In this document: positions 21,771 through 34,735 of the stretch, piece after piece
Position numbering within the stretch: position 1 is the stretch's first letter
Layout: every line of letters begins with the position of its first letter
Assembly: GCA_018065125.1 (NCBI GenBank)
Contig: JAGHTY010000118.1
Coordinates: 1 to 36,483, forward strand
Direction: 5' to 3'
Origin: Candidatus Minthousia equi
Lineage (GTDB): Bacteria > Bacteroidota > Bacteroidia > Bacteroidales > Bacteroidaceae
Length of the DNA: 36,483 bases
Made by a program: the position numbers and the translations under genes
The notes under the pieces: model-generated
Told to the model about the DNA's origin: nothing
The model's input: only the letters and a program-made list of their open reading frames with translations
The model's database searches: none

Positions 21771-21862
21771 TCTCTATCCCACTCAATGGATATCAACCCC
21801 CTTCACCAATTATTAATAATGGATGTTACTTTCATTTGCTTACCTCGACTTCTTCTCTTCAT

Positions 21863-22034
21863 TTCCTTTGTCTTGAAACAAAGGAAACGAAGCAAAGGAA
21901 AATTCAAGGCTGTATGAAAATTCCTAAAAATCTGCACTTTATTCGGGGAGCGCGAAAACTCGCTTCGCTCAAACAACCCCCGCTCCTTTTCCTCATAAAC
22001 CTTGTTTTTCTTAACGGAATTTCCATAAGGCCAT
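21863..22034 (-). repeat. Mosaic intergenic repeat, type alpha copy 1
   Basis: About 172 bp, nearly identical to the reverse complement of 29193-29367; contains aaaactcgcttcgctcaaac core and CCTTTGT...ACAAAGG hairpin. Confidence 0.9.
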
Positions 22035-22125
22035 CTTTGATTAATGATTAACGATTAGTGATTAATGATTATATCTTTTAAACTCTTAAACTTTTAACCT
22101 TTTAAACTGGAGCCGAAGGCGACCC

Positions 22126-22216
22126 CAGAAGTTCCTGCCTCGCTGGAAGGACGTGAAGAAATTTGAAGGAGGGGCGTTAAAATGAGCAGGTTGTTTGAGT
22201 GCGAAGCGAGGTAAGC
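22126..22216 (+). repeat. Mosaic repeat: beta left half joined at the core to gtaagcaaa tail
   Basis: agaagttcctgcctcgctggaaggacgtgaagaaatttgaagga...gttgtttgagtgcgaagcgag|gtaagcaaac; left half matches 24962-25035. Confidence 0.8.
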
Positions 22217-22250
22217 AAACGAAAGAAGAAGAAAAATTAAGAAAAATGAA

Positions 22251-22283
22251 AAAGAGGTGCTTCCGAAAGGAAACACCTCTTTG
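22251..22283. terminator. Intrinsic terminator hairpin (AAAGAGGTGcTTCC-GGAaaCACCTCTTT)
   Basis: Downstream of the minus-strand lipoprotein gene; same hairpin family as 34698-34735. Confidence 0.7.
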
Positions 22284-22348
22284 TATATACCTTTTAAACT
22301 CTTAAACCGTCGCGTAGCGACAATTGAACTGGAGTCGAAGGGACAACA

Positions 22349-22903
22349 TTACTTCTCAGTAAATGAAGCCTTCTCGCCATTCATTGAGAATGTACCTGCA
22401 AAGGTAAAGTTAAGCAACTTTACTGCATCTGTAATTAACTTATCAACCTCGCTGGCAGGTAAACCAGTAGTTTTATGAGGGGTTGATTCATGCCCTGTAC
22501 AAATGTATTGCTGGCCACTTGTTGCCACCCAATAAGCATTTCTTGATGGACTAGTTACAGTAAGGTCAAACTTGTCCTTGCTTGCCTTGTAGGTATCATA
22601 GTCCTTGCTCTTTGAAGCAGTGCAAACCAACTTTAAGTCAGCAGGAAGCTTGGTAGCAGTATCCTGAATGCTGATCTTGCCACTCTTTGGTGTATAATTA
22701 GTTGTCTTGCCACTCATGTCAGTATAGGTACAGGTAACATCTACCAACTTCAGGAAGTCTTCACTAAACTCAGCCTCTGAAACGAACAGGACATTCTTGA
22801 ACTTTTCAGTAGGAAAATATGGATCTTCCTTTGTCTCGGTACAAGCAGTGAACGACAATGCCAGTACTACCAGCATGCTAAAAACAGAAAAAATCTTTTT
22901 CAT
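22349..22903 (-). CDS. Lipoprotein of unknown function
   Basis: Start placed at MKKIFSVFSMLVVLALSFTACTETKEDPYF (lipobox), downstream of the ORF-track start at 22969; -7 box TACTTTTG at 22943-22950 lies between the two. Confidence 0.75.
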   Translation of the reverse strand: MKKIFSVFSMLVVLALSFTACTETKEDPYFPTEKFKNVLFVSEAEFSEDFLKLVDVTCTYTDMSGKTTNYTPKSGKISIQDTATKLPADLKLVCTASKSKDYDTYKASKDKFDLTVTSPSRNAYWVATSGQQYICTGHESTPHKTTGLPASEVDKLITDAVKLLNFTFAGTFSMNGEKASFTEK

Positions 22904-22969
22904 AACAATAATGTATAAAATTAAAATAACGTTTTCTTGGTGCAAAAGTACTTGGTTTTTACGCTCCAC

Positions 22970-23028
22970 GACCTTGCAAAACGTCTAAATTTGCAGTTAT
23001 TTTGAAAAAATAGACGTTTTGCAAGGTC
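22970..23028. promoter_or_regulatory. 18-bp perfect inverted repeat in a divergent promoter region (putative operator)
   Basis: GACCTTGCAAAACGTCTA (22970-22987), 23-nt spacer, TAGACGTTTTGCAAGGTC (23011-23028). Confidence 0.7.
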
Positions 23029-23074
23029 ATTTTCCCATATTTGTGCTTTATTTTGCAATAAAATAAATAGGAAT

Positions 23075-24838
23075 ATGACTAAACGACTCTTATTTCTTCT
23101 CTTGCCATTGATAGGGTTATTTTGCCAATGCAAGGATGAGCACCCCACCCCAGAAGGTGGAAAAGACTATCCTAGCAGGGAAACCTTTACCCTTATCGAC
23201 AACTGCATGAACTATATGAATTCCGACCCGCAGAAGGCACACGTCATGCTCGACTCGCTAAGAGATGCCAAGCTAATGACACCTCAGCGATGCGACTATT
23301 TCCATGCCATAGTAACATACAGTGGCGAGGAAGACCTTGACAGTGCACTGGTGATTTGTAACCGTTTGCTGGATAAAGGAGAGTTTGGCGATGACGCCTA
23401 CCTTGAAGAGGAAATCTGCGTGCTAGCATCAGACATCACCTCAAGCAGCCTTCGCCATGTTGAAACATTGAAATATGCCAACCGCGGCATTGCCATCTGC
23501 CACGGACACGAAAGCATGCACAGCGATGAAGCCACCCTCATGGGACGTATAGGCACAGCACAGCAGGAATTAGGGAAAACTGCCGAAGCACGCGAAACAT
23601 ACGCCAACGCATATAACCTGCTAAAGCAAAACAACAGTTTTGCTGATTTCATCGCACTTATCTCACTGCAAAGAAAACAAGCAAGCCTTTATAATGAAGC
23701 CAAGGATTACGACAAGGTGATTGATATCTGCCAGGATATTCTCTCACAGGTAGAACGCTTTGACAAGGATCCTTCGTTTATTGAGCAACGCCCCGAAACC
23801 ATGCAGAAATCCAGCACCGCCACACACGAATTTGCCGATTTCTACCAGTGCCAGATGTATGGAAAGATAGCACGTGCCTACCGCCTGAAGAATAACCCCG
23901 ACTCGGTAAAGGCATACATCGAGAAATGGAGCCACACACAGGCATCCAGCTCACCTATAAACAAGGTTTCGGTATTGCGCGAACTGCTCTTTGCCGGAAA
24001 AAAGGCTGAATTCAACGATGCAAGGCAGGCAGCTGAGCAATTGTACCAGGAAGATAGCCTTAATACCGAATATGTAGAATACCTTACCCTCATGGCAGAG
24101 GAGGCAGCCAAATCCAACGATATCAAGGCAAGCAATGCCTACCTGAAAAGGGCAGTTGCCATAAGCGACAGCATCCGCCAGCACAACACGGTGCGCGAGC
24201 TAAGCGAACAGCTGGCACTGCACAAGGTGCAAGAGCATCAGCTGGCACACCAGGATGCCGAACACCAGCTAAAGCGCCAGCACCTCACCATCATACTGCT
24301 GTCGGTGCTGCTGGGTATCACGCTCATTGCAGGTATCATTATCGTGACATTGATGCGCAGAAACAGAAAAGAACTGCAAATCATAGAAATGACGCAGCAA
24401 GATCTTAGCGAGTCGAAGGAAGAAATCAGGGAACTGGTGCAGCAACTTGAGGAAACAAAGGCCGAGAAGGTAGTTGTGAACATCAAAACACTCTACGAAC
24501 GCATCGAGAGTGCCATGGCCGAAGAAAAGCTGTATCTTAACCCCGACCTCGACCTGCCAACGCTGGCAACAGCAGTAAACTCCAGTCGCTCGATGATCTC
24601 TTTGTGCATCAACAATGTAACCGGAAAAACCGTACGTCAGTGGATAGCAGAATATCGCCTTGCACAGTTCGTAAAGATGATGAAAGAAAATCCCGATGAA
24701 CTGATCGACGTGCTTGTAATGCGATGCGGATACAAGGAACAATCTACCTTCCGCCGACAATTCAAGAGCGTTTATGGCGTTACGGCAGGAGAATACAAGA
24801 AACAATTGACAAGTCAATTGTCAATGAATAATGAATAA
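23075..24838 (+). CDS. Membrane-anchored regulator: lipoprotein/signal N-terminus, TPR repeats, TM helix, C-terminal AraC-type HTH
   Basis: 587 aa; TPR-like middle; TM LTIILLSVLLGITLIAGIIIVTLM; HTH LYLNPDLDLPTLATAVNSSRSMISLCINNVTGKTVRQWIAEYRLAQ...GYKEQSTFRRQFKSVYGVTAGEYKK. Confidence 0.88.
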   Translation: MTKRLLFLLLPLIGLFCQCKDEHPTPEGGKDYPSRETFTLIDNCMNYMNSDPQKAHVMLDSLRDAKLMTPQRCDYFHAIVTYSGEEDLDSALVICNRLLDKGEFGDDAYLEEEICVLASDITSSSLRHVETLKYANRGIAICHGHESMHSDEATLMGRIGTAQQELGKTAEARETYANAYNLLKQNNSFADFIALISLQRKQASLYNEAKDYDKVIDICQDILSQVERFDKDPSFIEQRPETMQKSSTATHEFADFYQCQMYGKIARAYRLKNNPDSVKAYIEKWSHTQASSSPINKVSVLRELLFAGKKAEFNDARQAAEQLYQEDSLNTEYVEYLTLMAEEAAKSNDIKASNAYLKRAVAISDSIRQHNTVRELSEQLALHKVQEHQLAHQDAEHQLKRQHLTIILLSVLLGITLIAGIIIVTLMRRNRKELQIIEMTQQDLSESKEEIRELVQQLEETKAEKVVVNIKTLYERIESAMAEEKLYLNPDLDLPTLATAVNSSRSMISLCINNVTGKTVRQWIAEYRLAQFVKMMKENPDELIDVLVMRCGYKEQSTFRRQFKSVYGVTAGEYKKQLTSQLSMNNE

Positions 24839-24883
24839 CGAGTTTTCGTTATCGTTATCGTAATCCCTAATCACTAATCAGAA

Positions 24884-25157
24884 ATGGCCTTATGAAAATT
24901 GCGTTAAGAAAATCAAGGTTTATGAGGATAAGGAGCGGGGGTTGTTTGAGCGAAGCGACCTAAGAAGTTCCTGCCTCACTGGAGGGACGTTAAGAAATTT
25001 GAAGGATGTGCGTTAAGATGAGCAGGCTGTTTGAGCATGTAATGCGAGTTTCTGCGAATTAGCACATACGCACAAATTTTAGTCCTGGAAGTGCAGCAGG
25101 TGAACTTTCTTTTTGTTTCTTTGTCTTTCCTTCATGGGAAAGACAAAGAAAGTAGAT
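24884..25157 (+). repeat. Mosaic repeat: alpha left half (24884-24957) fused at the core to a beta element (24962-25157)
   Basis: atggccttatgaaaattgcgttaag...ggagcgggggttgtttgagcgaagcga then cctaagaagttcctgcctcactgg...gcgagtttctgcgaattagcacatacg...; ends in CTTTGTCTTTCC-ttcat-GGGAAAGACAAAG hairpin. Confidence 0.85.
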
Positions 25158-25170
25158 AAAGAAAAAAAGA

Positions 25171-25230
25171 ATAAGAAAGGAAATTCCTTTCTAAAAAAAA
25201 CTGTGATACTGTGATCTGTGATCGCAACAA
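25171..25230 (+). repeat. ACTGTGATACTGTGATCTGTGATCGCAA module, copy 1
   Basis: aagaaaggaaattcctttctaaaaaaaactgtgatactgtgatctgtgatcgcaacaa. Confidence 0.85.
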
Positions 25231-25232
25231 GA

Positions 25233-25264
25233 AAAAAGGGTGAACAAATCGTTCACCCTTTTCT
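25233..25264. terminator. Intrinsic terminator AAAAAGGGTGAAC-AAATC-GTTCACCCTTTT
   Basis: Downstream of the minus-strand 25316-25783 gene; near-identical hairpin at 26924-26957. Confidence 0.75.
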
Positions 25265-25315
25265 TATATGTTCAAAGCTTGATTAAAAAAATCAAATTCT
25301 GATAACCAGAAACAA

Positions 25316-25783
25316 TTATCGCTCAATAATTCTGTCACGATAGTTTACAATCATAGGATCTTCATAAACCTGCAGTTCATCATATCCTGCACCGTTAAAT
25401 TCCTGTTCGCAGCGCAGCATGTGCAAGTGCATGTTGCCATCCTGACCGGTGTATTGCACCATGATGCTTGTGCGGCGGAAAAGAATATTTCCAAAATCAT
25501 CGCGCTTGTAGAACCAATGCTTTGCATTCACTGCCAGAATTTCCTTACCTGCACCCATGGTGTTCTTGTATGCCTGAGTAATGGTAGCCAGTGTCTCGCG
25601 GTCGGTCATAGGATATTCGCTCATCAGCTGCAGCACCTCAGAGAGAGGAATTGTTCTAATCTCTTCTGTCTTCTCTGTCTTGTTTTTCTTCTTGAAAAGA
25701 CCAAATTGTGCCTTTGCGTCTTGTGGTGCCAATGCCAGCATCCCAAAAACCATCATGATAACGTACAATGTTTTCTTTGTCAT
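25316..25783 (-). CDS. Secreted protein of unknown function
   Basis: 155 aa, signal peptide MTKKTLYVIMMVFGMLALAPQDAKAQ; -7 box TATCTTTG on minus at 25822-25829. Confidence 0.7.
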   Translation of the reverse strand: MTKKTLYVIMMVFGMLALAPQDAKAQFGLFKKKNKTEKTEEIRTIPLSEVLQLMSEYPMTDRETLATITQAYKNTMGAGKEILAVNAKHWFYKRDDFGNILFRRTSIMVQYTGQDGNMHLHMLRCEQEFNGAGYDELQVYEDPMIVNYRDRIIER

Positions 25784-26017
25784 AATACTATAGTATTTAG
25801 GTTTATAAATTTTATTTTTTGCAAAGATACAAACTTTATTTAAATGTCTAAAGATTTACATACAAATTTGTTATGAGTTATCAATTTTGTAATAATGGTA
25901 TGCTTTCTCCTCTTCTTTTGCTTACCTCGCTTCGTTCTCTTCATTTCTTTTATGGCATAATAACATTTTAGTAAGTCTTCTTGCATTATTAATAGATTTT
26001 CTCTATTTTTGCAGTAT

Positions 26018-26172
26018 AAATGTTTCACTAAAACACAAAGGAATAAGAACCAGAAAAGAAATAGAATATAAGTTGCCTTGCTAACATAGAATACGGCAAT
26101 GCAAGTAAAATAGTCCTCCACAAGGCTCCCATTTATGACGTAGGGAGAAATCGTTGTGGGGGACTATTTTGT
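26018..26172 (+). ncRNA. Structured small RNA candidate, copy 1 (promoter plus two stems, second terminator-like)
   Basis: TTG (25981-25983)-N20-TATTTTTG (26004-26011) promoter; stem 1 TTGCcTTGC/GCAAtGCAA; stem 2 TAGTCCTCCACAA/TTGTGGGGGACTA then TTTTGTTTTT. Homologous to 33013-33163. Confidence 0.65.
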
Positions 26173-26221
26173 TTTTACGAGAATTTTAAATAAAATAGTT
26201 TGGATTTGTTCACTAATTAGT

Positions 26222-26229
26222 TATCTTTG
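26222..26229 (+). promoter_or_regulatory. -7 box TATCTTTG of the HigBA-like operon
   Basis: TTTG 26199-26202, N19, TATCTTTG 26222-26229; ATG at 26241. Confidence 0.6.
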
Positions 26230-26240
26230 CAGCAAGCTTA

Positions 26241-26615
26241 ATGAAAAAAGAAAGAAATTATGTAAGGCAGATAGTTCCATTTCGCGAATATTTCAAGGAA
26301 TTCAAGCGAACACTGCCAAAAGAAGTCCTCGAGAAAATATATAAGGTATTCATCTACATAATGGTAGAACAGGTAATACCTTCACAGTTTTTCAAGAGTA
26401 TCGAAGGAGTAAAGGGGTTGTATGAAATAAGAGTAGAAGAAAGTGGAAACATTTATCGTATATTCTGCTGTATGGACGAAGGAAACCTAGTTGTTCTCTT
26501 CAATGCTTTCCAAAAGAAAACAACGAAAACACCGTCTCAGCATATTAAGCGTGCAACTGCAATTATGAAAGAATATTTTGCCGAAAAGGCTCAACTTAAA
26601 AACAGAAAACAATGA
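26241..26615 (+). CDS. HigB/Gp49-like RelE-superfamily toxin
   Basis: IKGLYEIRVEESGNIYRIFCCMDEGNLVVLFNAFQKKTTKTPSQHIKRA style motif; directly upstream of an XRE antitoxin with overlapping stop/start. Confidence 0.85.
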   Translation: MKKERNYVRQIVPFREYFKEFKRTLPKEVLEKIYKVFIYIMVEQVIPSQFFKSIEGVKGLYEIRVEESGNIYRIFCCMDEGNLVVLFNAFQKKTTKTPSQHIKRATAIMKEYFAEKAQLKNRKQ

Positions 26616-26920
26616 CACAGGAAGAGTTAAAAGCAATAGGATGCACCCCACTGGAAGATCTGATAACCGAGGATTTTGGCGCCTTGGGCACCCCAGAACG
26701 CGAAAACTTTGAATTGGGTTGCGATGCCTTTATTATAGGTGAACGCCTAAAGGCAGAACGTCTGAAAGCAGGACTCACGCAAGAACAACTTGCAATTAAA
26801 ATAGGAACAAAAAAAAGTTTCATCTCACGCGTAGAGAATGGTCATGCCGATATTCAGCTCTCTACTCTTTTCCGCATATTCAATGGCTTAGGAAGAAGGG
26901 TTTCCTTATCAATATTATAA
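26612..26920 (+). CDS. XRE-family (HigA-like) antitoxin
   Basis: ERLKAGLTQEQLAIKIGTKKSFISRVENGHADIQLSTLFRIFNGLG HTH. Confidence 0.88.
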   Translation: MTQEELKAIGCTPLEDLITEDFGALGTPERENFELGCDAFIIGERLKAERLKAGLTQEQLAIKIGTKKSFISRVENGHADIQLSTLFRIFNGLGRRVSLSIL

Positions 26921-26923
26921 ACA

Positions 26924-26957
26924 CAAAAAGGGTGAACAAACGTTCACCCTTTTCTTA
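26924..26957. terminator. Intrinsic terminator AAAAAGGGTGAAC-AAA-CGTTCACCCTTTT
   Basis: Directly after the HigA-like gene. Confidence 0.8.
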
Positions 26958-27021
26958 TTTTCAAAGTTTAGGTTAACTCAAAACCCAAAACTCCTCCCCC
27001 TTCGGGGGACAGAGGGGGCCC

Positions 27022-28371
27022 CTACTCCCGCTCCCTCCAAACAGGGCGGATAGGAAGGCCACGAGAGCGAATTACCTTCTCAGTTTTCAAGGTACTTAAT
27101 CTAAGTGCCTCTGCATTAACATGATCCCTTTCAATAGGAGTTGTAGCTGTCCAGTAAAGACCAGATTCCCTACTTCCATCAGTTTCGGATGAAAGGGTTT
27201 GTGGCAAGAATACAGAGTTTCCTTCATAACCGCTTACTTTACTCGTTAATATATAACCAGCCACACCGGTACCATTGTAATTATCTGTCCAATTCCAATT
27301 AAGGGATCCTAACAAAGCACCTATTTCAATGTCCGATGGTACATGCCAATTGCCACCCCAGGCAGTGTATGCAGCATCATGATCCAATGGCAAATCTGAA
27401 CTTTGTGGGCAATCCGGGAATCTGATGTCATCTATAAGATACTGAGTCTTTACTTCTGTTTCGCCAAAGCTATAGTAATCGCCAAAATCCTCAGGGCTTG
27501 CGGCACCAAGGTTTCTGTCGGCTATCTTTATACCCAAACCAAAGTCAACAGCCTTTACAGGTTCACTATAAACCATGTCAAGGAATTTGGCATCGTAAAA
27601 TTTGTTTCTTTCAATCTTCATGTTAGCAGCCTTCTTCACTGCCTTCGATCCATCTATCACGTTGTATTCCAATGTTACCCCTTCGTAGTTTCCTGGTGGA
27701 ACGGCAAATGTTATGATGTTTCTGGCACCAATCCTCCTGCTATCAAAATTAAGCACAGAGATAGGTCTGTCTTCATCCACGCCATTTATTCTTTTCGCCT
27801 TTAATACTACGCTGTACAAGTATTTTGTTTGCTCACCCGAAAAGGCAGTGTACCTCACCATGGCACCCACGTTGGTAAACGAAAGACTTGAAACAGTGGT
27901 TCCGCCATTGCTCACGGTAGCGGTGGCCACCATAGGTGCATCCGAAATGTCGCAAGCCACACCGTACCTAAATAACTGTCTTGGCCACGACTTTATCTTG
28001 CCATCGGCAGTAAGGCCCTCCCAAGTGGCAGGATAGTACACCATGTATTCGCCATCGGCAAGGTCTGCCTGATCTGCATCCATCGTGAACTCACCGTTAG
28101 GTTGTCCTGCCTCTGATGAAAGTGTAAAGTAGTACACTACAGAATCATCGTTTTTACTCACAAACTTTATTTTGTCGCCCTCACTCCACAGCACACGGTA
28201 GGTGCCAACCTCGTACGTGGCTCGTGTTTCGGCATTCTCGGTTACTGCCTGCACCTTTACTGGTGCCTTTGGGGTTTCTGCCTCTATCTGCTCTATCGCT
28301 TCTTCGTGCGAGCAGCTTGCCATACCCATGGCCATTGCCAGTGCAGCAATGATAGTATATAAGTTCTTCAT
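27022..28371 (-). CDS. Fimbrillin-like lipoprotein with C-terminal FISUMP-type domain
   Basis: Lipobox MGMASCSHEE; ETRATYEVGTYRVLWSEGDKIKFVS (fimbrillin-like); VDFGLGIKIADRNLGAASPEDFGDYYSFGETE (FISUMP-like). Confidence 0.8.
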   Translation of the reverse strand: MKNLYTIIAALAMAMGMASCSHEEAIEQIEAETPKAPVKVQAVTENAETRATYEVGTYRVLWSEGDKIKFVSKNDDSVVYYFTLSSEAGQPNGEFTMDADQADLADGEYMVYYPATWEGLTADGKIKSWPRQLFRYGVACDISDAPMVATATVSNGGTTVSSLSFTNVGAMVRYTAFSGEQTKYLYSVVLKAKRINGVDEDRPISVLNFDSRRIGARNIITFAVPPGNYEGVTLEYNVIDGSKAVKKAANMKIERNKFYDAKFLDMVYSEPVKAVDFGLGIKIADRNLGAASPEDFGDYYSFGETEVKTQYLIDDIRFPDCPQSSDLPLDHDAAYTAWGGNWHVPSDIEIGALLGSLNWNWTDNYNGTGVAGYILTSKVSGYEGNSVFLPQTLSSETDGSRESGLYWTATTPIERDHVNAEALRLSTLKTEKVIRSRGLPIRPVWRERE

Positions 28372-28383
28372 TTCTTCTTTTTT

Positions 28384-28548
28384 TTAGTTTGTCCAGATAT
28401 CTGTTTGGTTTTCCTCTTGATATGGTTCAGTACTTCCACCACCACTTGTAGCGATGATGTCGGTTACATCTATTTCTATTACATCCACCTTTGGGGTGTT
28501 CCACACTTCTTTTTCTGTGTTGTGTGGGGTTTTGATTTCTTTATTCAT
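28384..28548 (-). CDS. Small 54-aa peptide of the DIIATSG type, directly upstream of the fimbrillin/FISUMP gene
   Basis: MNKEIKTPHNTEKEVWNTPKVDVIEIDVTDIIATSGGGSTEPYQEENQTDIWTN; below the ORF-track length cutoff; second copy at 36351-36483 in the same gene context. Confidence 0.75.
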   Translation of the reverse strand: MNKEIKTPHNTEKEVWNTPKVDVIEIDVTDIIATSGGGSTEPYQEENQTDIWTN

Positions 28549-28635
28549 GTTTATTCTTTTTTAGAAAGGACACATTCCTTTCAATTTCTTATTTCTTTTA
28601 CTTTCTTATTCTTTCTTCTTTTCTACTTTCTTTTT

Positions 28636-28852
28636 CTTTCCCATGAAGGAAAGATAAAGAAACAAAAAGAATTGTAAATCGCTGTGGGAGGCGAAGCCGA
28701 GGTAAGCAAAGTTCACCTGCTGCACTTCCAGGACTAAAATTTGTTCGTATGTGCTAATTCGCAGAAACTCGTGCTTCGCACTCAAACAACCTGCTCATCT
28801 TAACGCACATCCTTCAAATTTCTTAACGCCCTTCCAGTGAGGCAGGAAACTC
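28636..28852 (-). repeat. Mosaic repeat, beta copy 2, with a delta segment (tcgctgtgggaggcgaagccgaggtaagcaaa) inside
   Basis: Reverse complement matches 24962-25157 on either side of the delta segment at 28674-28709. Confidence 0.85.
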
Positions 28853-28898
28853 GCTGGTTAATGATTATATCTTTTAAACTTTTAAACCTTTATAGATG

Positions 28899-28943
28899 CA
28901 AATTTAAGAAAAATCACCCTCTCAGCACCTTGCAAAACGTCTA
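28899..28943 (-). promoter_or_regulatory. Operator half-site TAGACGTTTTGCAAGGT plus -7 box TAAATTTG (minus strand)
   Basis: ACCTTGCAAAACGTCTA at 28927-28943 and CAAATTTA at 28899-28906; same 26-nt spacing as at the 22970 locus. Confidence 0.6.
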
Positions 28944-28989
28944 TTTTTGCAAATTGCACCTTATTTTTGGATGATTTGCAAATTGTTTC

Positions 28990-29170
28990 TTTCTTTTCTT
29001 TCGTGCAAACGAAAGATAAGAAACAAAAGAAAGGTTGCCCGCTGCGTCTCCAGAAGCTAAAAAGCACTTTCAATTGCTAAGGCGCAAAAACTCGCTTTGC
29101 TCAAACAGTTTGCGCCTCTTAACGCACTTTCAAGCACTTTTCTTAACGCTTCTTCCGCCAAGGCGGGAGG
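28990..29170 (-). repeat. Mosaic repeat, type gamma copy 1
   Basis: Reverse complement of 32580-32757; GGCGCAAA-aactcgctttgctcaaacag-TTTGCGCC stem-loop. Confidence 0.88.
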
Positions 29171-29192
29171 ATTAAACAAGTCAGCGAGTAGA

Positions 29193-29367
29193 AATGGCCT
29201 TATGAAAATTGAGTTAAGAAAATCAAGCTTTATGAGAAAAAGGAGCGGGGGCTGTTTGAGCGAAGCGAGTTTTCGCGCTCCCCGAATAAAGTGCAGATTT
29301 TTAGGAATTTTCATACAGCCTTGAACTTTCCTTTGCTTCGTTTCCTTTGTTTCAAGACAAAGGAAAT
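29193..29367 (+). repeat. Mosaic repeat, type alpha copy 2
   Basis: Inverted relative to 21863-22034; ggagcgggggctgtttgagcgaagcgagttttcgcgctccccgaataaag. Confidence 0.9.
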
Positions 29368-29390
29368 GAAGGAGTAAAGACAAAGAAAAG

Positions 29391-29450
29391 AATAAGAAAG
29401 GAATGTGTTCTTTCTAAAAAAACTGTGATACTGTGATCTGTGATCGCAAC
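29391..29450 (+). repeat. ACTGTGATACTGTGATCTGTGATCGCAA module, copy 2
   Basis: aataagaaaggaatgtgttctttctaaaaaaactgtgatactgtgatctgtgatcgcaac. Confidence 0.85.
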
Positions 29451-29467
29451 AAAAAAAAGGTAAAAAA

Positions 29468-29499
29468 TTTGTTTTTGTCAGATAAACATACTACTTTTG
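29468..29499 (+). promoter_or_regulatory. Promoter TTTG-N20-TACTTTTG
   Basis: TTTG 29468-29471; TACTTTTG 29492-29499. Confidence 0.65.
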
Positions 29500-29505
29500 T
29501 CGCAG

Positions 29506-29598
29506 TTTTCAAGGAACTTCGATGAAGGGATAACAACCCTTGCGGTAAAAACCGTTCCGAGCCTTAAATTTTGCCTGCCTTCTGGTAGGCATTTTTAT
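29506..29598 (+). ncRNA. Small structured RNA candidate ending in an intrinsic terminator
   Basis: GGAA-[AAGGG-ataacaa-CCCTT]-[CGGT-aaaa-ACCG]-TTCC, then TGCCTGCC-ttct-GGTAGGCA-TTTTTATTTT; promoter immediately upstream. Confidence 0.65.
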
Positions 29599-30101
29599 TT
29601 TATTGATGTTATACAATACTGAACCAGCTCTCCATTGCTGCGTTGTCTTCCTACTGTTAGTTTTATATTTTCAAAAGCTAACATCAGCATCATTTTTTCA
29701 AAGGATTTTTGATTCTTTACCTTAGGTTTCACAGGTTTCTCTTCTACTAAAGTAGCTTCGCTTAGCACTTCTGTTAATCTAAAAACAGCCAAGGTCGACT
29801 CATAAGAACGAGCTGCTTTTGCATATGTTTCATTTATAGATAAGAATTTCACCTTAATGAATTCTCCAAGATGTTTATTCCATATCTGTTTGTCGGGATG
29901 CTCTGCGCACCATTTAGCATAAAAACGCTTGATGATTTTTTCACGCTGCTTGATTACAGCACGTCCATAGCCACAAGGTATGGCTAAATCCGATATCATT
30001 TCATATGTATATGCATTGTTGGAATCTTGCAATGCTGTGGAAACCATTGGTGAGCTCAGGCTTGGCTGAGAATTGTCACCGGATATGTTTTTCGTATCCA
30101 T
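29595..30101 (-). CDS. Conserved-looking protein of unknown function
   Basis: Start placed at MDTKNISGDNSQPS (30101), 7-14 nt after the -7 box TACTTTTG on minus at 30115-30122; the ORF-track start at 30137 lies upstream of that box. Confidence 0.6.
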   Translation of the reverse strand: MDTKNISGDNSQPSLSSPMVSTALQDSNNAYTYEMISDLAIPCGYGRAVIKQREKIIKRFYAKWCAEHPDKQIWNKHLGEFIKVKFLSINETYAKAARSYESTLAVFRLTEVLSEATLVEEKPVKPKVKNQKSFEKMMLMLAFENIKLTVGRQRSNGELVQYCITSIK

Positions 30102-30364
30102 GTAATTCCACAGGCAAAAGTAAGCAGAATGTTTCACTGCACAAAATTTTATGTGGAATATTTGAAGGTGGGTTAGTGATTAATGATGTGAAGATGCAGA
30201 GTTGCAAAGACACAGAGCCACAACTCTGCGACTTTGCGTCTCTGCGTCTCATAACCCACAACTCAAAACCCAAATTAAGAATTAATCCAAAATTTTCATT
30301 ATCTTTGCAAAACTTACCGCTAAAACCCCTTAAACCGGAGCGAAGCGACAATTAAACTTTAATT

Positions 30365-32392
30365 ATGAAAAGAATATTATTACTCTGTTTCTGTATAGTA
30401 ACCTCAATGGGAATGTTTGCACAGCATCAGCATGCCGGCAGAAAGAAAGTTGGTGTAGTGCTATCGGGTGGTGGCGCAAAAGGCGCTGCGCACGTAAAGG
30501 CACTGAAAGTTATAGAAGAGGCTGGCATTCCTATCGACTATATTGCTGGAACAAGTATCGGATCGCTTGTGGGTGGCATGTATGCTTCGGGATATAATGC
30601 CGACCAGATAGACAGCCTTATGCGCAGCCAAAACTGGGGCACCTTGCTAATGGACAAGACCGAAAGAAAGCAGCTGAGCCTTTACGAGAGGGAACAGGTG
30701 GATAGAAACATCTTGTTGGCAAAGTTTGAAAAGACCCCTGGCGAGATTATTCAAGGAGGTGTGCTGAAAGGTTATAACGTGGCAAAACTGCTGACGCAGG
30801 TTACCGCCGACACCCCCGACAGCATGAGCTACGACAAACTGAAGATTCCTTTTGCCTGCGTGGCTACAGATGTGGTAACGGCACAAGAGGTGGATATGCG
30901 CGCTGGCGTACTGGCCGAGAGCATGCGTGCCAGCATGGCCATACCAACGGTTTTTGCGCCTGTGGTAAAAGGCGATAAGGTGCTAACAGATGGTGGCATT
31001 ACAAACAATTATCCTGTCGACCTTGTTAGAAAGATGGGAGCTGACTATGTGATAGGCGTGGATCTTTCTGAAGAGGTCTTGCCTTCAAGCAAGCTCAATA
31101 CCGCTCAGGCCATTGCCCTTAGGCTTATCGACATTCTCTGCATGAAAAAGCACGATGAGAATGTGGCAAATACCGATGTTTATATTAAGGTGAACGTAAA
31201 AGGCTATTCTTCGGCCAGTTTCAACAGCGAGGCGATAGATACGCTTATGCACAGAGGTGAGGTGGCTGCGCGTGGAAAATGGGACGAGCTGATTGCCTTG
31301 CGCGAAAAAATAGGACTGAAAAATCCTTTGCCTGCACCCCACCCTCGTGCAATGCCAAAGGATATGTACAACGTGGTGCCAGTGCCTTCTATCTACAAGG
31401 CAAACGAGCGAAACAGCTTTGTGGGTGTAGGTGCAAGGTTTGACAAGGAAGAACTTGCCAGCTTGCTGCTCGACGGCATGCTTGAACTAAACCACAAGAA
31501 GAAACTAAGCGTAGGTTTCGAAGCCCGATTGGGTAGAAGACTGAACATAGACCTCTACAGTAAACTGCACCTAAGCAGCGCATGGGTGGCACAGCTGAAG
31601 TATAACTTCAAATATAACGACATGAAGATATACGACAAGGGCGAACCTGTGTCGGAGGAAACGAACAACGGACACATTGTGCAACTGGATTTTTCACGCT
31701 ACTGGAGGAACTGGAAGGTAATGTTTGGCACTCGTTACTCTTACTACAGCTTTGATGAATCGCTGGTGCATAAAGACTATCTCGACTGGGCCGAGGATTC
31801 AAGCTCTGAACCAAGCCTGGGATACTTTGGCCGAGTAACTTTTGATAATCGCGATGCCAACGACAATGCCACAAGGGGCATGCTGTTCACCGTGGGTTAT
31901 GAACTGTTTACCGACAATGGCTGGTCGTTCGAGGGTGGCAAGGCGGTGAACATTCTTGATGCCAAGTTTGCCATTGCGCTGCCTTTGTCAAACGCTATCA
32001 CGCTAACACCAAGCGTGGCAGGCAGATGGATGTCGAAGAACGATTATTTCACTATCTGCAACTGCATAGGTGGCGTGAATACCGACGGACATTACATGTC
32101 TCAGCAGATAGCCTTTGCCGGCATAAACTATCTTCAGCTGGTAAAGAATAATCTGTTTGTGGCTGGCATTACGCTGCGCCATGCCATAGCATCAAAGCAT
32201 TATGTTTTTGCTGTAGGAAACTACGGTCAGCATTCTGATAAATTCTTCAGCACCAACAGCTCAGACCATCTTTATGGTGCAGCCCTTGGCTATGGCTATA
32301 AGTCGGCCATCGGTCCGCTCGAACTAAACTTCAACTGGAGCAATATGACGAAGAAGGTTGGCGTTAGCGTTAATGTAGGGTATATGTTTTGA
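30365..32392 (+). CDS. Patatin-like phospholipase with C-terminal outer-membrane beta-barrel domain
   Basis: VGVVLSGGGAKGAAHVKALKVIEEAGIPIDYIAGTSIGSLVGG, DGGITNNYPVD; C-terminal surface-antigen-like barrel ending NVGYMF. Confidence 0.92.
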   Translation: MKRILLLCFCIVTSMGMFAQHQHAGRKKVGVVLSGGGAKGAAHVKALKVIEEAGIPIDYIAGTSIGSLVGGMYASGYNADQIDSLMRSQNWGTLLMDKTERKQLSLYEREQVDRNILLAKFEKTPGEIIQGGVLKGYNVAKLLTQVTADTPDSMSYDKLKIPFACVATDVVTAQEVDMRAGVLAESMRASMAIPTVFAPVVKGDKVLTDGGITNNYPVDLVRKMGADYVIGVDLSEEVLPSSKLNTAQAIALRLIDILCMKKHDENVANTDVYIKVNVKGYSSASFNSEAIDTLMHRGEVAARGKWDELIALREKIGLKNPLPAPHPRAMPKDMYNVVPVPSIYKANERNSFVGVGARFDKEELASLLLDGMLELNHKKKLSVGFEARLGRRLNIDLYSKLHLSSAWVAQLKYNFKYNDMKIYDKGEPVSEETNNGHIVQLDFSRYWRNWKVMFGTRYSYYSFDESLVHKDYLDWAEDSSSEPSLGYFGRVTFDNRDANDNATRGMLFTVGYELFTDNGWSFEGGKAVNILDAKFAIALPLSNAITLTPSVAGRWMSKNDYFTICNCIGGVNTDGHYMSQQIAFAGINYLQLVKNNLFVAGITLRHAIASKHYVFAVGNYGQHSDKFFSTNSSDHLYGAALGYGYKSAIGPLELNFNWSNMTKKVGVSVNVGYMF

Positions 32393-32478
32393 TTGTCGCC
32401 TTCGGCTCCGGTTTAAAGGTTTAAAAGTTTAAAAGTTTAAAAGGAGACCCCCTCTGTCCCCCTTAAGGGGGAAGAAAA

Positions 32479-32526
32479 GTCAACGAGTCAACAAGTCAAC
32501 GGGTCAACAAGTCAACGGGGCAACAA
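32479..32526 (+). repeat. 8-bp tandem repeat (GTCAACRR) x6
   Basis: gtcaacga gtcaacaa gtcaacgg gtcaacaa gtcaacgg ggcaacaa. Confidence 0.85.
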
Positions 32527-32579
32527 GTTGATTTGGCCTTATGGAAATTGCGTTAAGATAATCAATAGGTCAGCAAGTG

Positions 32580-32757
32580 ACCCGCCTTGGCGGAAGAAGC
32601 GTGAAGAAAAGTGCTTGAAAGTGCGTTAAGAGGCGCAAACTGTTTGAGCAAAGCGAGTTTTTGCGCCTTAGCAATTGAAAGAACTTTTTAGCTTCTGGAG
32701 ACGCAGCGGGCAACCTTTCTTTGTTTCGTTTCTTTCGTTTGCACGAAAGAAATGAAA
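32580..32757 (+). repeat. Mosaic repeat, type gamma copy 2
   Basis: cccgccttggcggaagaagcgtgaagaaaagtgcttgaaagtgcgttaagaggcgcaaactgtttgagcaaagcgagtttttgcgcc...; inverted relative to 28990-29170. Confidence 0.88.
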
Positions 32758-32874
32758 GATAAAGTTCATGGGAAAGAAAAAGAAAGGATAAAAGACAAAG
32801 GAATCGAAGATCGCTGTGGGAGCGAAGCGAGGTAAGCAAATGAAGGAGTAAAGACAAAGAAAAGAAAAAAAAAG

Positions 32875-32933
32875 AATAAGAAAGGAAATTTCCTTTCTAA
32901 AAAAACTGTGATACTGTGATCTGTGATCGCAAT
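32875..32933 (+). repeat. ACTGTGATACTGTGATCTGTGATCGCAA module, copy 3
   Basis: aataagaaaggaaatttcctttctaaaaaaactgtgatactgtgatctgtgatcgcaat. Confidence 0.85.
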
Positions 32934-33012
32934 AAAGAAAAAAGGACATCAATCCCACATTATTTTTACTAATTATTCTTTGATGCAGATTTATTGTCGT
33001 ACCTTTACCAAC

Positions 33013-33163
33013 GTAATCAAAAACAGGAATTAAGAAACAGAAATAAAAGCATATCAGTTGCCTGCCAACACATAGTTTCATGGCAAGGCACGTAAAGCAG
33101 TCCTCCACAAGGCTCCCATTTGTGCACAGGGAGTTTACTTTGTGGGGGACTGTTTTGCTTTAT
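33013..33163 (+). ncRNA. Structured small RNA candidate, copy 2
   Basis: Stem 1 TGCCTGCC/GGCAaGGCA; stem 2 CAGTCCTCCACAA.../...TTGTGGGGGACTG then TTTTGCTTT; weaker promoter TACCTTTA at 33000-33007. Confidence 0.6.
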
Positions 33164-34658: not shown

Positions 34659-34700
34659 TTCTAAAAAAAACTGTGATACTGTGATCTGTGATCGCAACAA
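34659..34700 (+). repeat. ACTGTGATACTGTGATCTGTGATCGCAA module, copy 4
   Basis: ttctaaaaaaaactgtgatactgtgatctgtgatcgcaacaa. Confidence 0.85.
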
Positions 34701-34735
34701 AAAGAGGCGCTCCTTTCGGAAGCACCTCTTTTTAA
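34698..34735. terminator. Intrinsic terminator AAAAAGAGGcGCTCC-tttc-GGAAGCaCCTCTTTTT
   Basis: Hairpin with flanking A and T tracts; same hairpin family as 22251-22283. Confidence 0.7.

Follow-up and report, generated by a model that had tools for sequence, protein, structure and literature searches.

The window, that is, the whole stretch of 36,483 nucleotides analysed from Candidatus Minthousia equi (contig JAGHTY010000118.1, assembly GCA_018065125.1), holds six full intergenic repeats of three types, alpha, beta and gamma, each occurring once per orientation, together with several truncated pieces. A repeat search returned the inverted pairs 21857-22034 / 29194-29371 for alpha (96%), 24968-25108 / 28708-28848 for beta (92%), with beta tails at 25107-25166 / 28612-28671 (90%), and 29026-29167 / 32581-32722 for gamma (98%). 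The core motif, GAGCGAAGCGAG, occurs 9 times in the window with at most 1 mismatch, while 0.07 occurrences are expected from shuffles. With the coordinates given by the covariance model described below, the full alpha elements lie at 21857-22039 (minus strand, 147.5 bits, 96% to the copy at 29189) and 29189-29371 (plus strand, 147.1 bits), the beta elements at 24965-25151 (plus strand, 142.5 bits) and 28632-28851 (minus strand, 84.1 bits), and the gamma elements at 28990-29172 (minus strand, 146.8 bits) and 32576-32757 (plus strand, 150.1 bits), the alpha at 29189 being placed head-to-head with the gamma at 28990-29172, only 17 nt away. The E-values of these six hits range between 7e-26 and 1.4e-13, although, since five of the six types/copies are close to the training set of the model, this represents consistency and not proof. 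The only Rfam matches in the window were tRNAs, and a search for loci related to its 449-aa protein found no relatives.

The beta copy at 28632-28851 differs from the other in carrying an insert of about 40 bp between its right arm and its tail, here called the delta module (AATTGTAAATCGCTGTGGGAGGCGAAGCCGAGGTAAGCAAA, 28665-28708, plus strand). A second delta module lies downstream of the gamma tail (32798-32838, plus strand), with a copy of GAGCGAAGCGAG; both modules were recovered in the repeat search. In addition, GAGCGAAGCGAC is found outside any element at 30338-30349 (plus strand), just before the gene at 30365, showing that the short motif is not confined to the family. As regards the truncated pieces, 24880-24958 (plus strand) is an alpha left arm which matches 29190-29268 at 94%, ends in the core and is joined to the GACC...AGTTCCTGCC sequence that precedes several beta copies. 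Since it is followed by a separate and complete beta element (24965-25151), it is a truncated alpha beside a beta and not a recombinant element. Similarly, 22119-22210 (plus strand) is a truncated beta left arm (22119-22199 matches 24955-25035 at 89%) ending in the core and joined to GGTAAGCAAA, while 32534-32565 (plus strand, 94% to 24885-24916) is an alpha left-arm fragment that does not break at the core.

A first-pass annotation had described these repeats as a mosaic family with a mini-hairpin core, whose left and right halves would be reassorted by recombination or template switching at that core, with REP/BIME-like, MITE-like or RAYT-mobilised elements as alternatives. The observation itself was confirmed: the three types, their orientations and the hybrids are all real, as are the mini-hairpin core and the breaks at the core in the two hybrids it named. 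Its interpretation, in contrast, was only partly supported, since the halves turned out to be the two arms of one imperfect hairpin. In fact, the left and right arms of each type are complementary, both in folds predicted from single copies and in arm alignments, with the GAGCGAAGCGAG core as the apex and the CTTAACGC boxes as one-sided bulges. Between types and genomes the arms have unrelated sequences but stay complementary, whereas the loop motifs are conserved.

The predicted fold, about 175-220 nt long, consists of a long imperfect hairpin with two one-sided bulge motifs (left GCGTTAAG opposite right TTAGC/GTAGC, about 20 bp apart), an apex made of CTGTTTGA, a mini-hairpin (mostly with a GNA loop) and GAGTT, a closing CCGCC/GGCGG-like stem, and a 3' pyrimidine/purine hairpin whose loop can pair with the linker 5' of it, forming a probable pseudoknot. 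In the arm alignments the left GTTAAG faces only TA on the right, so that GT and AG bulge out on one strand. The apical hairpins vary with compensation (GC-GAA-GC, GTGC-GAA-GCAC, GCAT-GAA-ATGC), reaching long stems in other genomes, and the CTTGAC-like sequence of the linker is complementary to the loop of the terminal hairpin (GTCAAG and variants).

RNAalifold on plain MAFFT alignments found almost nothing and, therefore, the structure was taken from averaged single-sequence pairing. A covariance model (length 183, 65 pairs) was built from 31 copies of 11 genomes and used to collect further copies. On 84 distinct rows, 59 of the 65 pairs showed changes on both sides and 85.3% of cells were paired, while on 125 distinct rows the figures were 61 of 65 and 84.9%; controls with partners slid gave 42-52%, and none of 500 shuffles reached the observed values. 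Although these counts lean towards the structure, since the alignments were fitted to the model and the rows are related, the unfitted arm alignments show the same pairing. Loop-linker complementarity of 5 or more perfect pairs was found in 43% of 134 distinct copies, against 22% (maximum 28% in 200 rounds) when loops were swapped, once stem sequence was kept out of the statistic. Moreover, isolated mismatches inside helices, scored symmetrically, comprised 52 G.T against 26 A.C (p=0.004; 29 against 11 in a stricter set), so the folded strand is the one reading TGTTTGAGCGAAGCGAG.

The model matched 67 of 199 Bacteroidales genomes and 40 of 218 Bacteroidota genomes at E<=0.001, with arms unrelated between genera. 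Under the strict filters applied, at most 12-13 places were scored per genome, which makes the copy numbers lower bounds, and the E-values of this model are rough; its specificity rests on these values and on the genomes and loci without hits. With more places scored, 28 matches were obtained in G197 and 16 in G024 (G numbers denote the genomes compared). A scan of genome contigs with a gamma-derived 17-mer returned mostly chance matches in other phyla. Rfam 15 has no match, since permissive scans gave only chance matches far below gathering scores, and no description of the element was found in searches of the open-licence literature.

Which left and right halves occur together had been proposed beforehand as a test of reassortment. 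In the whole genome, a draft of 219 contigs (C numbers) that is 84% complete, so that some copies are missing, all 22 copies with both arms have arms matched by type (3 alpha, 10 beta, of which 2 are cut by contig ends, and 9 gamma), as expected if the arms must base-pair; none has the left arm of one type and the right arm of another. Three left halves end at the core, the two of the window and a third at C102:9574-9656, which joins GGTAAGCAAA, a sequence that elsewhere follows tails or ends delta modules. The three are joined to non-homologous sequence at a 9-11-bp GAGCGAAGCGA / GCGAAGCGAG motif. GAGCGAAGCGA occurs 16 times in the genome as exact copies, including downstream of tails and upstream of beta elements, and deletion between such short repeats is the simplest account, although it is inferred from the junctions only. 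Other left fragments (32534-32565, C66:1532-1570 and C84:19181-19232) do not break at the core. Nevertheless, some exchange is real, since the apex hairpin GTGCGAAGCAC is shared by beta and gamma, and tail stems have been swapped (beta copies on C9 and C66 with alpha-type tails). Even with these three truncated halves and the shared apex hairpins, reassortment of halves at the core is considered very unlikely.

Mobilisation by RAYT/Y1 transposases, as for REP or REPIN-like elements, was also tested and was not supported. The elements are intergenic and palindromic, they form inverted pairs (head-to-head 9, tail-to-tail 1 among close inverted neighbours), and one Y1 gene exists in the window genome (C68). 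However, this gene is surrounded by a different palindrome family, none of 31 Y1 loci holds a copy, and six carrier genomes, G024 with its 16 copies among them, have no Y1 match, so that this possibility is largely refuted and is regarded as very improbable. G263 and G273 share a Y1-like ORF within 1.5 kb of a copy. REP/BIME/REPIN elements (PMC3733652) are likewise intergenic, palindromic, often in inverted pairs and probably transcribed in many cases, but they measure 20-40 nt against about 183 nt and carry GTAG or CGTC at one end, while here no such terminal tag at a short stem and no associated RAYT were found, GTAGC occurring only as internal boxes in some genomes. ERIC and BOX repeats are also long imperfect palindromes or modular intergenic repeats that fold as a single strand, although they belong to other phyla and their sequence is conserved within a group, while here only loops and pairing are.

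In several relatives, on the other hand, the structure is the interior of short non-coding units with TIRs, as in MITEs. In G062 it is the middle of a unit of about 315 bp with imperfect 26-bp TIRs and 8-bp target duplications (perfect in 12 of 20, with three more 7 of 8), whose ends are reminiscent of the ISL3 family. In G149, G300 and G303 it is the middle of 307-326-bp units with another TIR, CAYTGGTGTCCGG-like, and 9-bp duplications (9/9, 8/9 and 9/9), while in G197 it lies in 675-1004-bp units with a third TIR, some in tandem arrays, where no duplication was evident. The TIRs of the three kinds of unit are unrelated, whereas ordinary MITE families share their ends and not an interior fold across a phylum. 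In the window genome, where close pairs are head-to-head, as in G024, the element appears bare: no TIR or target duplication was recognised by eye around the copies of the window genome, and a generic scan for TIRs with target duplications was no better than the control. A genus-wide synteny search gave no usable empty sites. A MITE-like nature is supported in relatives but not shown in this genome.

The bare copies, the one-sided bulges, the apex of the d(GCGNAGC) kind and the head-to-head pairs, as in REP pairs, could also suggest that the element is itself mobile through its folded single DNA strand, being moved by an unidentified ssDNA enzyme other than a Pfam Y1_Tnp which would recognise the bulges and apex, and that MITEs acquired it by insertion. 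Against this, no ORF family was shared across more than a few genomes within about 1.5 kb of roughly 75 loci, no clear replication-strand preference was seen in the complete genome G197, and where termini are sharp they belong to TIR units; this alternative is therefore considered unlikely, although less so than the others. The same neighbourhood survey revealed no adjacent nuclease gene shared among loci, such as the IscB/TnpB-type nucleases of HEARO / OMEGA-type RNAs, which are structured RNAs with pseudoknots carried by small mobile elements, although a nuclease acting in trans would escape such a survey, and Rfam has no match. Finally, same-orientation arrays of folded sites with one-sided extrahelical bases, spaced 300-950 bp in G197, G431, G546 and others and 1-2 kb in G024, could recall the attC sites of an integron cassette array. 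In the arrays inspected, however, the spacers were near-identical tandem copies or ordinary genes in either direction, and no neighbouring recombinase was shared among the loci of that survey, which makes this reading the least likely of those considered.

With regard to gene context, in 131 loci with distinct flanks the gene on the 5' side runs in the same direction as the element in 87. Tandem-gene loci split 51 to 29 (p=0.018), 36 loci are convergent, 15 are divergent, and 14 overlap an ORF of 110 aa or more. This favours transcription with the upstream gene, although the bias is moderate and rests on ORF calls made in this analysis and on loci picked by score.

Taken together, a family of non-coding intergenic elements defined by fold and not by sequence is the explanation preferred, with moderate confidence. 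What the comparisons demonstrate is that arms covary while loops stay conserved across the phylum, that each genome has its own arm sequences, that the core strand is the folded one, that in several relatives the element is the interior of units with TIRs (with target duplications in two of the three kinds), and that Y1 transposases are not associated. It is, however, by inference that selection is taken to act on the folded single strand, somewhat more likely an RNA than ssDNA, given that it is more often co-directional with the upstream gene, although without transcript evidence and with an apex that a stable ssDNA mini-hairpin would also show. Likewise inferred are the spread of copies as passengers of MITEs moved by resident transposases and by local duplication, and the origin of the hybrids of the window by deletion between short repeats. 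As for function, a transcribed 3'-end structure is no more than the guess favoured here.

Structured, MITE-like intergenic repeats are already known, and spread as a passenger of TIR elements would be ordinary; what would be surprising is the shared fold inside unrelated carriers. It remains possible, though tentative, that this is a previously undescribed class of structured single-stranded element, most likely RNA, conserved by fold across the Bacteroidota phylum, which repeatedly becomes the interior of unrelated MITEs because the fold itself is functional, either for the host transcript or for mobility. The fold also explains why the mosaic halves of such repeats look reassorted when read by sequence alone. 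With about 60 covarying pairs, conserved loops and a probable pseudoknot, present in about a third of the sampled Bacteroidales genomes yet absent from Rfam, it represents a sizeable undescribed component of Bacteroidota intergenic DNA, and the fact that units with unrelated TIRs carry the same folded interior suggests that the fold, and not the ends, is what selection keeps.

Besides the folded elements, another repeated intergenic block (AGTCCTCCACAAGGCTCCCATTT...TTGTGGGGGACT) was found at 26095-26175 and 33082-33161 of the window, and also on other contigs of the same genome (G000), at C186:6746-6996, C3:1-201 and C68:1143-1364. This block is a strong inverted repeat placed upstream of small genes (a Gp49/HigB-like gene at 26241, and 33207), resembling a shared leader. 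In addition, a 45-nt repeat with CTGTGATACTGTGATCTGTGATCGCAAC occurs at 25189-25233, 29411-29455, 32894-32938 and 34659-34703, three of the four copies lying just downstream of an element tail, while a ACCTTGCAAAACGTCTATTTTTGCA motif (22970-23028 and 28927-28953) is present as an inverted pair before the gene at 23075 and once more at 28927.

As regards Y1 transposases, a larger Y1-like (RAYT-type) ORF lies within 1.5 kb of a copy of the element in two genomes, G263 (locus L076) and G273 (locus L194), although these cases are too few to mean much. In G000, the only Y1 transposase gene (locus L014, contig C68, 200-1150) is surrounded by copies of a different palindrome (GCCCTGAAAGGGC with AACCCAGGG/CCCTGGG), and the two are perhaps the true RAYT-REP pair of this genome.

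In other carrier genomes, tandem arrays of element plus spacer were observed at single intergenic sites (loci L251-L256 of genome G197, and loci L321, L323 and L324), the units being 98-99% identical in G197. Copies of genome G062, for example locus L353 and others recovered as split matches, have extra segments at the same three points (left arm, right arm and near the tail), as if the hairpin had been lengthened on both sides. Finally, at loci L073, L075 and L081 (genomes G149, G300 and G199), the tail hairpin is followed by a further small motif, GCC-GTGC-GGC-TTGA-GCAC, which covaries (GTCC/GGAC, GTC/GAC, TTTGC/GCAAA) and is perhaps a second pseudoknot.
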